Shown: positions 46,920 through 54,400 of the stretch, in pieces
Layout of the letters: each line of letters begins with the position of its first letter
How positions within the stretch are numbered: position 1 is the stretch's first letter
Source: Hufsiella ginkgonis
Lineage (GTDB): Bacteria; Bacteroidota; Bacteroidia; Sphingobacteriales; Sphingobacteriaceae
DNA length: 64,000 nt
Assembly (NCBI RefSeq): GCF_009834915.1
Contig: NZ_WVHS01000002.1
Span: 496,001 to 560,000, forward strand
Reading direction: 5' to 3'
Program-made: the position numbers and the translations under genes
Notes under the pieces: model-generated
The model's input: the letters and a program-made list of their open reading frames with translations, nothing else
Databases searched by the model: none
What the model was told of the DNA's origin: nothing

Positions 46920-47420
46920 ATGAATTTCAATGACGTAAAAGTATTGATTGAAGAGAGGTTCGGTCCCGATGCTATCCTGGGAACAGAAGAAACCGGGTTA
47001 CAGCCTGCCCTCCTGGTCCAACCCGACCGAATCGCCGGTATCTGCACCGAACTAAGAGATAATCCCGCTACGTATTTCGACTTCCTGGCTTGCCTCACGG
47101 GAGTTGACCATGGTGCTGACGAACGGGCTTTTAGCGTGGTATACCACCTTTCTTCGATACCTTACAACACGCAGCTGGTCCTGAAAGTAAAAAAACAGGT
47201 TAACGAAACTTCCGGAGAAATGCCCTTTTTTGATACCGTATCCCCGGTTTGGAAAACCGCCGAATGGCATGAACGTGAGGCCTTCGACCTGCTTGGCATT
47301 TACTTCACCGGTCACCCGGACTTACGGCGGATCCTGCTTCCCGACGACTGGGAAGGCCACCCGTTACGAAAGGACTATGAAACGGCAGAATATTACAACG
47401 GAATTAAAATCGATTTCTGA
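46920..47420 (+). CDS. nuoC: NADH-quinone oxidoreductase subunit C
   Basis: This 166-residue 30-kDa complex I subunit belongs to the peripheral arm. The end carries the signature ERGAFDLLGI-like block (EREAFDLLGIYFTGHPDLRR), then ILLPDDWEGHPLRKDY. The N-terminal YFDFLACLTGVDHG is typical. It is one base after pdxH and 52 bases before nuoD. No nuoA, nuoB or nuoE-N genes are present on either side. Confidence 0.95.
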   Translation: MNFNDVKVLIEERFGPDAILGTEETGLQPALLVQPDRIAGICTELRDNPATYFDFLACLTGVDHGADERAFSVVYHLSSIPYNTQLVLKVKKQVNETSGEMPFFDTVSPVWKTAEWHEREAFDLLGIYFTGHPDLRRILLPDDWEGHPLRKDYETAEYYNGIKIDF

Positions 47421-47423
47421 GGG

Positions 47424-47472
47424 CTATCTGCGATTGGCTGATGGCCTTCAGCTGCTAGCTGACAGCTAAAAT
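47424..47472. repeat. Heptamer tract between nuoC and nuoD
   Basis: Seven 7-bp units (CTATCTG, CGATTGG, CTGATGG, CCTTCAG, CTGCTAG, CTGACAG, CTAAAAT) fill the whole gap from three bases after the nuoC stop to the nuoD ATG. The position leaves no Shine-Dalgarno-like sequence in front of nuoD. Confidence 0.65.
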
Positions 47473-48642
47473 ATGACACGTTACGAAGCCCTCCTATCCA
47501 ATATCGAGCCCCAGGAAATGATCCTGAACATGGGTCCCCAGCACCCCTCCACGCATGGCGTATTGCGTTTGGAGCTGATCACCGACGGCGAGATCGTAAA
47601 GGAGGTAATCCCGCATATAGGTTACCTGCACCGCTGTTTCGAAAAACATGCCGAGAACCTTACTTTCCAGCAAACTATTCCGTTTACCGATCGCATGGAC
47701 TACCTGGCGTCGATGAATAACAGCCACGCCTGGGCGATGGGCGTTGAACGTATGCTCGGTATCGACAAAGAGATTCCCAGGCGGGTGGAATATATCCGGG
47801 TGCTGGTTTGTGAACTGAACAGAATCGCGTCTCACCTGATAGCGGTGGGCACTTATGGCATCGACATCGGTGCTTTTACCCCGTTTCTCTGGTGCTTTCG
47901 CGACCGCGAACATATTATGGGCATGCTCGAATGGGCATCGGGTGCAAGAATGTTGTACAATTACATTTGGGTAGGCGGTTTATTTTATGATCTCCCGGTA
48001 GGGTTTGAAGAAAGATGCCGCGAATTCGTCGACTATTTTAAACCCAAAATGGTTGAGTTGAACCAGTTGTTAACGGATAACCAGATCTTTATTTCCAGGA
48101 CGGCGAATGTGGGCGTACTACCTGCCGATGTCGCCATCAATTACGGCTGCTCGGGACCTATGCTAAGAGGTTCGGGTATAAAATGGGATCTTCGCAGGGC
48201 GGATGAGTACTCGGCTTACCCCGAGCTGGAATTCGACATCCCGGTAGGCAAAGGCCTGATGGGCACCGTGGGCGACTGCTGGGACCGCTACAAAGTACGC
48301 ATCGACGAAATCGAACAATCGGTATTTGTCATCGAACAGTGCCTTGAACGGCTTCAAAAAGAACTGAAACGTACACCGGATTTCGATCCGCGCGGAAAAC
48401 TTCCCCGTAAGATCGTACCCAAAGCCCAGGATTTTTACGTTCGGGCAGAAAATCCCAAAGGAGAATTGGGCTTCTATTTCGTTTGCGATGGCAGAACAGA
48501 GATCCCTAAACGAGTTAAAGCCCGTGGACCGAGCTTTAACAATTTATCTGTGATCTCAGAAATTTCGAGGGGAGTGTTGATCGCCGACCTGGTAGCGATC
48601 ATCGGATCCATTGATATTGTACTGGGCGAAGTGGACCGCTAA
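47473..48642 (+). CDS. nuoD: NADH-quinone oxidoreductase subunit D
   Basis: This 389-residue 49-kDa subunit of complex I helps form the quinone site. It has [13 protein letters not shown] near the start, [15 protein letters not shown], and the end block [20 protein letters not shown] followed by SFNNL and DIVLGEVDR. The length is typical of the family. The gene ends the short nuoCD cluster and its stop overlaps the convergent protease gene by four bases. Confidence 0.96.
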
Positions 48643-49736
48643 TGCTTGGCCGAATATGCCTTCACCATAAATACATACTTCTTCAGTTTATTGTACTGCT
48701 CATTGCGGCTCAGACCGGAAAGACTGTTTTTCTTACTGAGTACTAATTTATCGGTTAACGAGTCAGAAGGAATCGCCTCAATGGCCTTTAAAAGAAAGCT
48801 TGATTTGGTGGCAAATGCCGCACCTTCCATACTCGCCTGTTTAGCCTGGATCAAACCGATCACGTTACCCCGGTTGTCAATCAATGGTCCGCCGCTGTTT
48901 CCCGGGTTCACATCGATGGAAACCTGGTACTGCGTCGTATCACCCCGGTAGCCCGTCGACGCACTCAAGTAACCTTTTCCGTATACCTGGCTGTCACGGG
49001 GATAACCGACGGTAAACACATCTTCGGCCGGGCCGGATTCAGACTTCTTAATGAAATAAGGCAACGTCGTAAATGCCTTAAAATGCGGATCCGTGATCTG
49101 GAGAATGGCCACATCATAGGTAGCATCCGTATAAACTACCCTGCCTTTATATGATTCGCCGTCGCTGTTCTGAATATATACCGAATCAGCACCCTTTACG
49201 ATATGCAGGCCCGTGGCAATATAATTACCGGATAACGCAAAGCCCGTACCGCCGTAAGTACCTGGATTTACCGGGCCATGATTCAAGCGACTTTTAACAG
49301 AGCGTATTTCCCTGTCGGTCATCCTAAGCTTATCTTTAAAATCCTGGCTCAGCTGCACTAAATCGCTCTTGGTGGGGCTGAAAGTACCCGTATACAGCAA
49401 GGTAGAAAGCAGGGTGAACAACGCAACCGAAGCCGCAATCGCAAGATTAAAGCGATGTTTTGCCCATAATTTCTTTATGATCACCTCGTTGGGCGTAACC
49501 GAGCGCCTGATGGACGCAATATCCTGTTCGCTGTGGATATCCTCAAGGTCGGCAAGCAGCTGGTGCCGTTTGCCATAATCAGACAGCTGTTTCATAAAGT
49601 TGAAATGATTCACTACCAGTTGGTCGACGGCAGGGTCATTTTCGCGCAGCTGTTCAAAACGTTCACGATCTTCCGCAGACAGCTCGTCCCTGAAGTACGC
49701 CTCTGCCTTGTTGATCAAATCTGTTTCACTTTTCAT
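48639..49736 (-). CDS. Membrane protein joining an anti-sigma-like domain to a trypsin-like protease
   Basis: This 365-residue protein has an N-terminal cytoplasmic region that resembles an anti-sigma domain ([20 protein letters not shown]), one transmembrane helix at about 97-117, and a periplasmic S1C-type protease domain. The likely catalytic triad is H178 (ATGLHIV), D208 (ATYDVAIL) and S281 (NPGNSGGPL). No PDZ domain follows. It is 12 bases after the sigma factor gene, so a regulatory pair is expected: the protease part may sense envelope stress and the cytoplasmic part may hold the sigma factor. The joining of both functions is unusual; the anti-sigma role is inferred. Confidence 0.8.
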
Positions 49737-49748
49737 TCTTACGTGGTA

Positions 49749-50318
49749 TTAAACCTGGAAAAATAGCTTTTTCAGGCGCTGCAGGCATTTGTACTTCTGA
49801 TTTTTGGCGTTATCCGCGTTGGTGTAACCAAACTTCTCACAAATATCCTGCATGGAATTGTTGTGTATATAAAAATCTTCGATGATGGTTTTGCAGGGCT
49901 CCCCCAGCTTTCCAAGCGCAAGCCCCATCATCCTGAACTGTTCATCCTTTTCCTCGTGCTGCTCCAGGTCCTGTTCTACCGGGAGAATATCTTCGAAATC
50001 CCGGATAGATCCCGATTTCCGGGCCAGTAACGTTAGTTTCTTAAGCCATAATCGCCTTGCGACCGAATAAATGAACGTCTTTAGTTTACTGCTCAGTTCA
50101 AAATTACCCTGCTGAACTTTATTGTAAAGTACGATCACCGTCTCCTGGAAAATATCCTTCGCATCATCCTCATCACCATTGTTGGTAATCACTAACTGCA
50201 TCACCATCGGAAAATATGCCTTGTACAACTCATTTAATGTTTCCTTCGATCCATTTAAGAGACCGAAGACAAAATCACTATCTGTTGGCCCAGGCTTTTT
50301 AATCTCGTTTTTCACCAT
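49749..50318 (-). CDS. RNA polymerase sigma factor, ECF type
   Basis: This 189-residue sigma factor has region 2 (DIFQETVIVLYNKV, SKLKTFIYSVARRLWLKKL) and region 4 (PCKTIIEDFYIHNNSMQDIC, FGYTNADNAKNQKYKCLQRL). Regions 1.1 and 3 are absent, as in ECF sigmas. It forms an operon with the membrane protease that has an anti-sigma-like N-terminus. Its target promoters may be those of the mini-lipoproteins just upstream, where a shared GGTTAC...GTATY pattern is seen. Confidence 0.9.
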   Translation of the reverse strand: MVKNEIKKPGPTDSDFVFGLLNGSKETLNELYKAYFPMVMQLVITNNGDEDDAKDIFQETVIVLYNKVQQGNFELSSKLKTFIYSVARRLWLKKLTLLARKSGSIRDFEDILPVEQDLEQHEEKDEQFRMMGLALGKLGEPCKTIIEDFYIHNNSMQDICEKFGYTNADNAKNQKYKCLQRLKKLFFQV

Positions 50319-50445
50319 TAATACGCTACACTGCTCAATTGTAACCCAATGATAAAGAAAATATTTAAGGGCAAAACAGCAGGTTACCTTTTTTACAAAC
50401 GGCGTATCAATTCAAAAATCCGAACGACTTTAAAACTTAACGAAC

Positions 50446-50637
50446 ATGAAAAACACACTTAAACTTGCCTTCCTCGCAATGACAATCGCTTTAGGCGCAA
50501 TGGCCTGCGACCCACCCAACAACACCGGCACCCACCCCGGCGACTCTACTTCGGTAGATACTTCGGTGGTCGATTCCCTTAACCCCGATACAGCCCAGGT
50601 AGATACCGTGGGGATTGTAAAAAAAGACAGTATTTAA
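50446..50637 (+). CDS. Mini-lipoprotein 1, Asp/Ser/Thr-rich
   Basis: This 63-residue protein has a signal peptide with a lipobox (TIALGAMAC), then a tail rich in Asp, Ser, Thr and Val with repeated STSVDTSV-like and DSLNPDTAQVD segments. No fold is predicted. It is the first of three similar genes in a row. Its codon use is like the surrounding genes, unlike the next two copies. The function is unknown. Confidence 0.6.
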   Translation: MKNTLKLAFLAMTIALGAMACDPPNNTGTHPGDSTSVDTSVVDSLNPDTAQVDTVGIVKKDSI

Positions 50638-50780
50638 CTTTCAAAGCCAGCCGTCGGACCGGAAAGGGGCTTGAAAAAATCGAATTAAAAAAATAAAAAA
50701 AAATACATTTCACCGGGTTACCTTTTCGGTCCCGCGGTATTAAGCATTGAAACTTAGTTAAAATTACAAAGAAAAAACAC

Positions 50781-50987
50781 ATGAAAAATTCATTCAAATT
50801 CGGCTTCTTAGCTTTAGCGATCGCATTATCTGTAGCTGCTTGTAACTCTTCTAAAACTTCAGAAGGTAGTGCTGATTCTGACTCAATCGCCGCTGCTTCT
50901 GTTGATTCTATCGATTCTACTGCTTCCGCTACTGTTGATTCGGTTGATTCGACTGCAGACGCTGCAAAAGATTCAGTAAAACACTAA
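50781..50987 (+). CDS. Mini-lipoprotein 2, Asp/Ser-rich
   Basis: This 68-residue protein has a near-copy of the third gene's leader (MKNSFKFGFLALAIALSVAAC). After the lipid Cys comes a tail of DSxDSxA-type repeats (SADSDSIAAASVDSIDSTAS) ending in KDSVKH. The codons favour T-ending forms (TCT, GCT, GAT, ACT), unlike most genes of the window, suggesting high expression. A strong terminator follows it at 51004. The function is unknown. Confidence 0.65.
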   Translation: MKNSFKFGFLALAIALSVAACNSSKTSEGSADSDSIAAASVDSIDSTASATVDSVDSTADAAKDSVKH

Positions 50988-51003
50988 TCTTTCGAAAGAA
51001 ATT

Positions 51004-51033
51004 AAAAGCCGCTAAAACTTAGCGGCTTTTTTT
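51004..51033 (+). terminator. Terminator after mini-lipoprotein 2
   Basis: A 12-base perfect stem (AAAAGCCGCTAA paired to TTAGCGGCTTTT) with loop AAC is followed by TTT. It is 17 bases after the stop codon. Confidence 0.9.
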
Positions 51034-51114
51034 GTTAATATTTTATAATATATTGCAAATTTTACTATTTTCGCATAACTCACAATCAAACTCAACAAAC
51101 TCAAACAAAACAAC

Positions 51115-51309
51115 ATGAAAAATTTATTTAAATTCGGCTTTTTAGCTCTTGCTCTTTCTTTATCAGTTGCCGCTTGCAGCTCAAGCAAAACAGAAGCTGG
51201 CGCTGCTGATTCTGATTCAGTAACCGTTGATTCTTCAGCTACTATGACTGACTCGACCATGACTGATTCTACCACTATGGACTCTACTAAAACTGATTCT
51301 GTAAAATAA
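51115..51309 (+). CDS. Mini-lipoprotein 3, Asp/Ser/Thr-rich
   Basis: This 64-residue protein has the leader MKNLFKFGFLALALSLSVAAC, only a few residues from copy 2. Its tail is made of DSxxTDST-type repeats (TMTDSTMTDSTTMDSTKTD) ending in DSVK. Codon use is AT-rich and T-ending like copy 2. It has its own upstream region after the preceding terminator and its own terminator, so it is a separate unit. It is a paralogue of the two genes before it; the function is unknown. Confidence 0.65.
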   Translation: MKNLFKFGFLALALSLSVAACSSSKTEAGAADSDSVTVDSSATMTDSTMTDSTTMDSTKTDSVK

Positions 51310-51350
51310 TCAGGAACAGTTCTACTTACAACAGGTAGCCTGTAAACGCG

Positions 51351-51386
51351 AAAAACCGGTAAGCCCTATGCTTACCGGTTTTTTTT
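51351..51386. terminator. Bidirectional terminator between mini-lipoprotein 3 and the RND operon
   Basis: A 14-base perfect stem (AAAAACCGGTAAGC paired to GCTTACCGGTTTTT) with loop CCTAT is flanked by A and T runs on either side. It can stop the plus-strand mini-lipoprotein gene and the minus-strand RND gene, which ends at 51419. Confidence 0.9.
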
Positions 51387-51418
51387 ATTGGGAGTAACCG
51401 GGGTTGCCGGTTACTTTC

Positions 51419-54400
51419 TTAATTATGTTCAGCAACTACCGCTGTCTTCTTTTTAGCCGGCGAGAACTGGTTCTTTACCTTGATGCGCAGGAGGTACATA
51501 CACGGCACCAGGATCAGCGTGATGAAAGTACCGAAGGCCAAACCAAAGATCATCGTCCACGACAGTGGTCCCCAGAATGCCACGTTATCTCCTCCAAAGT
51601 AGATCTTCGGGTTAAATTCGGTGAACATGGTGGTAAAATCGATGTTCAGGCCAACGGCCAGCGGGATTAGCCCGAGGATCGCCGCGATGGCGGTCAGGAT
51701 TACCGGCGTCATACGCGTGCGCCCTGCTTCGAGCGTAGCTTCATAAGGGCTCATACCCTGCTCGATCATGTAATCAGAAAACTCCACGAGCAGGATACCG
51801 TTGCGGACCACCACCCCGGCGAGCGCAATGATGCCGATCATGGTCATTACTACGCTAAAGTTCATGTTAAAGATAGAAAGCCCGAGCAGTACCCCGATAA
51901 TACTGAACAAGATCTCGCTCAGGATAATAAGCATCTTACCAACCGAGTTAAAGAGCAGGATCAGGATAATGATGATCATGCCGACCGCAGATAATAACGC
52001 GCCTGCCAGGAACGCACCCGCCTCGGCTTGCTCTTCCTGCCCGCCGCCCATTTTAATAGTTACCCCGGCAGGAGCTTTAAAATTATTGATTTCCTGCTGA
52101 ACCGCGCCAACCACTTCGTTAGGATTGAACTCGCTCAATACGTTCGACGAAAGAATGATGATCCGCTTTTCCTGCCTTCTCTTAATACCGCCATACGAAT
52201 TCTGGTAGCTAATGTCGGCAAACGAAGAAATCGGCACCTGCCTGATCTGTCCGCCCATACCCATATCACGATAAGTTACCTTCATGTTCTTTAAGGCATC
52301 CAGGTTATTGCGCTGGTCTTCTTTAGCCCTTACGTTAATCTCGTAATCCTCTTTCTGGTCGTGGAACTTAGAAAGCTCGGCACCGTAAATGGCTGTTCCC
52401 AGGTTTTGTGCGATCTGGCCGGTAGATACGCTCTGCCTGTTGGCCCGCTCCCGGTCGATGTTAAATATCACCTCCGGTTTGTTGTTCTGGAAGTCGGACT
52501 TCAGCTCTTCCACACCGGGAATATTTTTCTTTACCAGGTAGTTACGAAGCCGCTCAGAAGCGCTCACCAGCGAATCGAGGTTATCGCCCGTAATATCGAT
52601 AGCGATCGGTTTCTGTTGCGGCGGCCCGCCCTGCTCCTGCGTTACGCTGATCTGGGCGCCCGGGATCCCTTTTACCGATTCCCTGATCTTGTTTAACAGC
52701 ACCTTGGTGTCTCCACCGTCGCGCTCACCGAACTCCACGAAAGCGACGGTCACTTTTCCCCTGTTGGGATAGTTACCCTGGTCCTCGTCCTGGGGATCGG
52801 TAACCCCCACCGTAACGTTCGAGATGATGGAAGATACCAGCGGGTTATTTTTACCGACGGTCGCCATTACTTTATCCTCTACCTTATGGGTCACCATGTT
52901 GGTGTACGCCTGGTCGGTACCTACCGGTAGTTGAATATATACGTACGCGAAGTTCGGATCTGCGGAAGGGAAGAATTCTACCTTAGGTTTGCGGATCACC
53001 GTAAATACGATCGATAATATGAACAGCACAAAGGTTCCCCCCAGGGTTGTCCACGGCCGGTGAAGGAACCAGTCGAGTCGTTTGGTATACCAACCCTGGA
53101 AAGCAGGCCACGCACGTTCCTGGAACCCACGGATAAGGCCGCCGAGCACAAAATGGTTCAACAAGTATAATAAAGCCACAAATAACACAAAGCGCCCTAA
53201 ACCCACGTTCACCAGGAAGCCCAGTAAAGCAACGAAGACGAATACGCCCAGGGTGATCATCACCCTTCGATCAAATTTGGGCTTGCCGTGCTCGTGCTCT
53301 ACGTGTGGTTTCATAAAGTCGACCGCGAAAACCGGGTTAATAATATAGGCCACCACGAGCGATGCCAGGAGTGTTACGATCAGTGTTAACGGCAGGAAGA
53401 ACATAAACTCCCCGATAATACTGTTCCAGAACAGCAGCGGAACGAATGGCGCCAGCGTGGTCAGCGTACCCGAAAGCACCGGCATAAATACCTCACCTGC
53501 GGCCATTTTTGCGGCTTTCTTAATCGGGACTTTCCCGTTTTCGAATATACGGTGGGTATTTTCGATCACCACGATCGCGTCGTCTACCACGATACCGAGT
53601 GCGAGCAGGAACGAGAACAGCACGATCATATTCATCGTAAAGTTGAAGTCCATCACCCCGCCCAATGCCGGCATCGCCAGGAATGCGATAAAGCAGGAAA
53701 GCGGCACCGAAAGCGCTACGAAGATCGCGTTAGTAACCCCCATGAAAAACATTAATACTACGGTAACCAGTATAAACCCGATAATAATGGTATTGATCAG
53801 GTCGTGAAGCGTAACACGGGTTTTATTGGAGGTGTCGCCCGTAATTTTAACTTCTAATCCCCTGGGGAGCTCGCTTTCTTTCATCTCTTTGATGAGCGCC
53901 TGGATCTTGTCCGAGGCTTCGATCAGGTTCTGCCCCGCTCTTTTGATGATATTCAGCGTAATTACGTTCTTACCATACAGGCGTGCGTAACTTTCCTGGG
54001 TTTTGAAAGAGTCTTTTACCTCCGCGATATCGCTTAGCTTAATAGGCCTGCCCTGCGGGTTCACGATCGTTATTTCGGCGATCTCTTCCGCAGATTTAAA
54101 ATCCATCTTGATGTTAATGCTCCGGCGAACTCCGTCGACGGGCACTGTACCTGCCGAGGAAGTCACGTTTTCTGCACCTACCGCATTGCGGATGTCCTGG
54201 AAGCTTACAAATGCAGCCGACATCTTGTTAAGGTCGACGTTGATCTGGATCTCGCGATCCAGCGCACCTACGATATCCACTTTCGAGATCTCCGGAAAAC
54301 CTTCGATGCGCTCCTGGATATCGTCTGCGTACTCCTTAAGCTTCTTAAGGTCGTAATCGCCTGAAATGTTCACGTACATCACCGGGAGATCAGATAGGTT

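Follow-up and report, generated by a model that had tools for sequence, protein, structure and literature searches.

The window analysed here is a stretch of 64,000 nucleotides of the Hufsiella ginkgonis genome. Three small lipoprotein genes lie in tandem on its forward strand, at 50446..50637 (copy 1, 63 residues), 50781..50987 (copy 2, 68 residues) and 51115..51309 (copy 3, 64 residues). They share the leader MKNxxKxxFLAxxxxLxxxAC and have tails rich in Asp, Ser and Thr, as the first-pass annotation had claimed when it described three tandem paralogues. The lipobox is MAC, AAC and AAC with the Cys at residue 21, and the leaders, with their basic N-terminus and hydrophobic stretch, have the features of signal peptidase II substrates. 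Ala20 and Cys21 are invariant across 20 aligned copies. Copy 2 is followed by an intrinsic terminator (51004..51036, forward strand; the opposite strand also has a terminator-like hairpin). Reading by eye we find a terminator-like hairpin after copy 3, ACCGGTAAGC-CCTAT-GCTTACCGGT with a T-run (51355..51387, forward strand), and the terminator scan gave the neighbouring hairpin at 51390-51418. Rfam has no match in the region 50100-51500.

On the sequence evidence these reading frames are real genes under purifying selection. Of 151 Sphingobacteriaceae genomes sampled, 136 have a homologue of copy 3, and the closest named related loci are in Pedobacter and Daejeonella. Related loci hold from one to five tandem copies (in 53, 25, 20, 16 and 1 loci respectively). 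Loss of the frames in near relatives had been named as one outcome that would speak against them. They are kept, with a median dN/dS of about 0.17 among related copies and 0.20 for the tail alone, from pairs that overlap phylogenetically and are not independent. A genome-wide search for paralogues, which the first-pass annotation had proposed, gave only these three as close relatives; other small lipoproteins of this composition (C21:145523 and C1:75735) give E-values of just 0.03 and 0.24. In one related locus (L050, G013:C3:289995 and 290618) a third tandem copy sits between two identical lipoprotein copies, which suggests gene conversion or recent duplication.

Codon usage separates the copies. 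By codon adaptation index copy 2 stands at the 100th percentile of 593 genes of this genome, copy 3 reaches the 99.2th and copy 1 the 46th, and amino-acid-matched null draws give P of about 0, 0.002 and 0.66. T3 in copies 2 and 3 is 0.49 versus 0.21. The reference set was the ribosomal proteins, the 593 genes were taken from the window plus further regions of the same genome, and 40 regions served as genome background. This bears out the earlier observation that copies 2 and 3, and not copy 1, have codons of the highly expressed type. It is indirect evidence that both may be highly expressed.

The sigma factor and its predicted anti-sigma/protease

An ECF sigma factor of 189 residues is encoded divergently at 49749..50318 on the reverse strand. 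It scores 71.7 bits against TIGR02937 (cut-off 42.9, residues 27-184) and has a Sigma70_r2 match. On the same strand at 48639..49736 is a protein of 365 residues in which we predict a membrane anti-sigma factor joined to a protease of the trypsin-like, HtrA type. Residues 1-70 are predicted to form a helical bundle, a helix at about 83-116 holds a membrane segment, and the protease spans 163-311. The protease half is clear: Trypsin_2 scores 80.2 bits against a cut-off of 27.6, the triad His178/Asp208/Ser281 is kept in more than 95% of 98 homologues, and by sequence the domain is closest to proteases of the HhoA/DegP/DegS type. No PDZ domain appears in the family matches of the window protein, nor among the 25 most frequent families (37 members). 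The N-terminal half gives fainter signals. It matches the 'anti-sigma factor' family NF052375 at values down to 6.7e-5, below the curated cut-off, and zf-HC2 matches 13 of the 37 members, also below the curated cut-off. A helical model of the first 120 residues (mean pLDDT 87.5) has as its best solved match the anti-sigma factor RslA, a weak match with Z 5.2 over 63 residues and an rmsd of 5.5. We consider an anti-sigma/protease fusion the best reading, because individually weak domain and fold hints combine with the position in a sigma operon. A class I anti-sigma neighbour has been identified for few ECF factors of the phylum (6%, PMC7406223). A full-length AlphaFold model was set aside: its protease half has a mean pLDDT of 58, and its fold matches were not used.

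There are two known systems worth comparing. The sigmaE/RseA-DegS type likewise has an autoregulated sigma factor, a transmembrane anti-sigma factor and a periplasmic trypsin/HtrA-type protease, which are predicted here. It differs in that the prediction here is a single polypeptide that combines anti-sigma factor and protease and has no PDZ, and the conserved target is a mini-lipoprotein rather than folding factors. RsgI9 of C. thermocellum (PMC12203970) carries an S1C peptidase-like domain across the membrane from its anti-sigma domain, as here, and its structure 7sjy is among the fold matches. However, RsgI9 is a Gram-positive SigI-type protein with another N-terminal domain and a role in polysaccharide sensing, whereas the catalytic triad is conserved in the protein described here.

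The first-pass annotation placed the lipoproteins beside a sigma/protease pair, and this adjacency is conserved. In 98 of 115 loci the pair lies next to the lipoprotein genes and divergent from them; the loci are mostly from Pedobacter and the counts are therefore not independent, and some contigs are included twice, leaving 84 distinct sigma upstream regions. Thirteen of the 15 family genomes without a lipoprotein match also have no full-length protease; several of these genomes are small or incomplete. In other families of the class (L250-L262) the orthologous proteases are divergent to small lipoproteins with strongly drifted sequences. Elsewhere in the neighbourhood, nuoC-/nuoD-like Complex I genes (46920-48642) converge on the anti-sigma/protease gene without a continuing nuo operon. 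A prolipoprotein diacylglyceryl transferase gene (Lgt, PF01790; 61106-62269) lies about 10 kb downstream. It stays nearby in about half of the loci, which may reflect no more than synteny inherited along with purB and nifU-like genes.

A putative promoter shared by the sigma and lipoprotein genes

The motif GGGTTAC-N15-GTATT precedes the sigma gene and lipoprotein genes. The putative promoter of the sigma gene (50319..50346, reverse strand, GGTTACAATTGAGCAGTGTAGCGTATTA) ends at the annotated ATG. That of copy 2 (50716..50742, forward strand, GGTTACCTTTTCGGTCCCGCGGTATTA) stands 38 nt before the ATG, and that of copy 1 (50382..50409, forward strand, GGTTACCTTTTTTACAAACGGCGTATCA) has a spacer of 16 and the -10 variant GTATCA. 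De novo gapped-word counts were run apart on the sigma and the lipoprotein upstream regions and the same word emerged: GTTAC-N15-GTATT is found upstream of 76 of 84 sigma genes and 120 of 204 lipoprotein genes. GGTTAC is present in 100% of the sigma and 90% of the lipoprotein upstream regions, against 2-3% of shuffles. The lipoprotein consensus is GGGTTACCTTTT-N10-GTATTAA at about 39 nt before the ATG. If looser spacing is allowed, 98 of 102 loci have the promoter at at least one copy. It is also present at copies that are unlinked to the sigma gene within the stretch examined (L093, L095, L103 and L175), therefore it is not a by-product of adjacency. Most module loci of other families (L247-L262) have the same promoter before the sigma and lipoprotein genes, at the latter 30-49 nt from the ATG. 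We infer that the sigma factor recognises this motif, and that the neighbouring sigma/protease pair is the probable regulator of the lipoproteins.

Exact sites are rare, with 4 in the 5.2 Mb of the genome and 1 for a reversed-pattern control. Two of the four are those of the sigma gene and copy 2. A third (C23:4987) looks intragenic. The fourth (L240, G000:C12:951579, reverse strand) is a perfect GGTTAC-N15-GTATTA 44 nt before the gene of an exported protein, which by eye is followed by a glutathione-peroxidase-like gene. The gene at L240 is a possible further member of the regulon.

Copy 3 has no GGTTAC promoter. It has a possible housekeeping -7 element (51066..51073, forward strand, TATTTTCG) with one mismatch to TAnnTTTG, the housekeeping consensus (PMC9723704), and other copies that lack GGTTAC have boxes resembling it too. 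Promoters of the E. coli sigma-70 type occur at chance level only. It must also be mentioned that the -10 of the sigma gene (GTATTA, within 50315-50346) abuts the annotated ATG both here and in related genomes (GTATTAATGGTG), therefore the transcript may be leaderless, its translation starting at the next GTG or at some later start.

The tails as arrays of O-glycosylation sequons

The tails consist almost wholly of such sequons. In the 192 distinct copies, Ser or Thr comes after 1166 of the 1252 Asp residues in the tails (93%), and in 96% the next residue is T, S, A, V, I, M or L. The measured O-glycosylation site of the Bacteroidota is D-S/T followed by L/I/V/T/A/S in about 90% (PMC12871550), and the residue profile of the tails agrees with it. 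The first-pass annotation had noted that O-glycan sites recur in the tails, and the counts are far above chance. The motif D[ST][AILVMT] occurs 5, 6 and 5 times in the three window copies versus 0.7, 1.2 and 1.6 in shuffled tails, and when Ser is allowed in position 3 (D-[ST]-[AILVMTS]) the numbers are 6, 6 and 6. The latter form totals 1124 in the 192 copies, about four times the 279 expected from shuffling, and 459 versus 121 in a redundancy-reduced set. Lipoproteins linked to the module in other families have 56 sequons versus 11.8 expected (4.7-fold).

Is a dedicated function needed to explain this? One can imagine that the tails are only disordered acidic spacers, or chaperone-like polyelectrolytes, and that D-S/T is a soluble low-complexity repeat that carries no glycan. 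The tails are nearly free of aromatic, Arg and Cys residues (8 of 3848), as a spacer would be, and there are T/A/E-rich module members that have few sequons. Just one curated family gives a noticeable response to the lipoproteins, the PG1828 family of P. gingivalis (NF050142), also a short lipoprotein with a low-complexity acidic tail. Against it the three window copies score 24.1, 30.8 and 42.0 bits, none of which reaches the cut-off of 50, and what is shared is mostly leader and composition. Its Prevotella-like matches have Glu repeats without sequons, such as VEEAAP, which also speaks for a spacer. However, a spacer does not account for what follows D-[ST]. Lys makes up 11% of tail residues and follows Ser or Thr without a preceding Asp in 6.5% of cases, but it follows D-[ST] once in 1166. 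Asp, Glu and Gly are likewise nearly absent from that position, as was also measured for the Bacteroidota sequon (PMC12871550). The number of sequons also varies little. The mode is six per protein, in 45 of 85 non-redundant tails, and the dispersion index of 0.31 is under-dispersed. The repeat unit is 5 residues in most tails, 11 in those like copy 2 and 7 in other families. Each window copy has six sequons although the repeat units differ (DSIDSTASATV/DSVDSTADAAK in copy 2, TDSTM in copy 3). We regard the spacer reading as possible and doubtful.

We argue that the tails are likely O-glycosylated, judging by these sequon statistics and by a relative. An O-glycosylation enzyme has been demonstrated in Pedobacter heparinus, also of the Sphingobacteriaceae, along with a glycosylated heparinase (PMC8698959). 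One genomic observation counts against this: the 19.9 kb examined at metG (G000:C1:412590) hold no wzx/glycosyltransferase cluster of the metG-linked, LFG-like O-glycan locus. This check covered the surroundings of metG, and a site elsewhere in the genome is possible. Sequon enrichment in the other exported proteins of this genome is modest in lipoproteins (1.42, with an N-[ST] control of 1.31) and not seen in secreted proteins (0.91), therefore we do not take it as proof of glycosylation, and this weak genome-wide signal speaks for the spacer reading. Three module lipoproteins of other families (L254, L261 and L262) have only 1-2 sequons, so glycosylation cannot be universal in the module. 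A minority of Pedobacter copies have DSP/DSN triplets, which are poor sequons. One such subclass (L135:7701, L138:7343, L177:7699) is without the promoter and may have lost glycosylation. Known Bacteroidota O-glycoproteins such as heparinase I of P. heparinus and BF2494 of B. fragilis share the sequon D-S/T-A/I/L/V/M/T and export. The difference is density: here sequons fill much of a mature protein of 43-48 residues, at about one per 8 residues.

The conserved protease invites a second scenario, where the tails bind it as substrate, inhibitor or titrant and a mis-made lipoprotein is the signal. DegS is activated by the C-termini of outer-membrane proteins. Lipoprotein and protease are conserved together and co-occur, and both the resemblance of the protease domain to the DegS group and its intact triad fit such feedback. 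But there is no PDZ domain to read a C-terminus, the lipoproteins have no conserved C-terminus (H, K, M, Q, N), and the protease is conserved while the tails differ completely between families. We consider this unlikely. A tether from the outer membrane to peptidoglycan like Braun's lipoprotein is improbable. The proteins are of Lpp-like size and apparently abundant, and some tails have a helical periodicity of 7 or 11 residues (VDSAAAK in other families, the 11-residue unit in copy 2) or end in Lys, but a C-terminal Lys is present in only 27 of 192 copies, in the window only copy 3, and the 5-residue period of most tails is unsuited to a coiled coil. Buffering of calcium or other cations, an idea already raised in the first-pass annotation, has almost nothing in its favour beyond an Asp content of 14%, since profile searches of the lipoproteins matched no calcium-binding (EF-hand or RTX) or other known domain family, Asp mostly occurs once per 5 or 11 residues, the median tail has 6 Lys/Arg versus 9 Asp/Glu, and the avoidance of Lys after D-[ST] is left unexplained.

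A proposed envelope-response module

The first-pass annotation favoured a surface lipoprotein, and this part we would revise. The surface-export signals of Capnocytophaga, Bacteroides and Flavobacterium (K-(D/E)2, SDDDD, SDDFE) contain an acidic pair (PMC5080379). Such a pair at +2 to +6 is found in 0 of 192 copies, an argument that rests on signals defined by experiment in other families. In P. gingivalis the abundant surface lipoproteins escape O-glycosylation, and predicted sites are on abundant periplasmic proteins and non-localised lipoproteins (PMC8729774). Because of the missing acidic pair and the P. gingivalis pattern, the anchor more likely faces the periplasm than the cell surface.

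We propose with moderate confidence that the locus is an autoregulated envelope-response sigma module whose main conserved target is a layer of glycosylated, disordered mini-lipoproteins. The ECF sigma factor would be held inactive by a protein that crosses the membrane once, with its anti-sigma domain in the cytoplasm and its trypsin-like protease in the periplasm. An envelope cue would release the sigma factor. Once free, it would transcribe its own operon together with the divergent mini-lipoprotein genes, using the GGGTTAC-N15-GTATT promoters. Copy 3, which lacks this promoter, would supply a constant basal level from a housekeeping promoter. The lipoproteins would be abundant, with lipid on the Cys and O-glycans on about six D-[ST]-x sequons of the disordered tail. 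The product would be a dense, acidic, sugar-rich brush anchored to an envelope membrane, probably facing the periplasm. A bolder version, which we offer as a long shot, is that the switch senses the glycosylation state of the envelope, or lipoprotein maturation, and floods the envelope with lipid-anchored sequon arrays that serve as a mucin-like glycan buffer. Selection would then conserve the glycan count, about six per molecule, and not the sequence.

ECF/anti-sigma systems, HtrA-type sensors and Bacteroidota O-glycoproteins are each known already. In the open-licence literature we found no earlier description of these mini-lipoproteins or of an ECF module with a sequon-array mini-lipoprotein as its conserved target. 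Little is known of what the O-glycosylation system found throughout the Bacteroidota does (PMC12871550). Mini-lipoproteins of nearly pure sequon, with a predicted sigma factor of their own, offer a minimal and genetically simple test case for it. Deleting a single locus would reveal the role of a dense layer of protein-bound glycan. The ECF/anti-sigma-protease pair, for which we likewise found no earlier description, gains a function-linked target set and a promoter sequence. The module suggests that soil Bacteroidota possess a switch devoted to coating their envelope.
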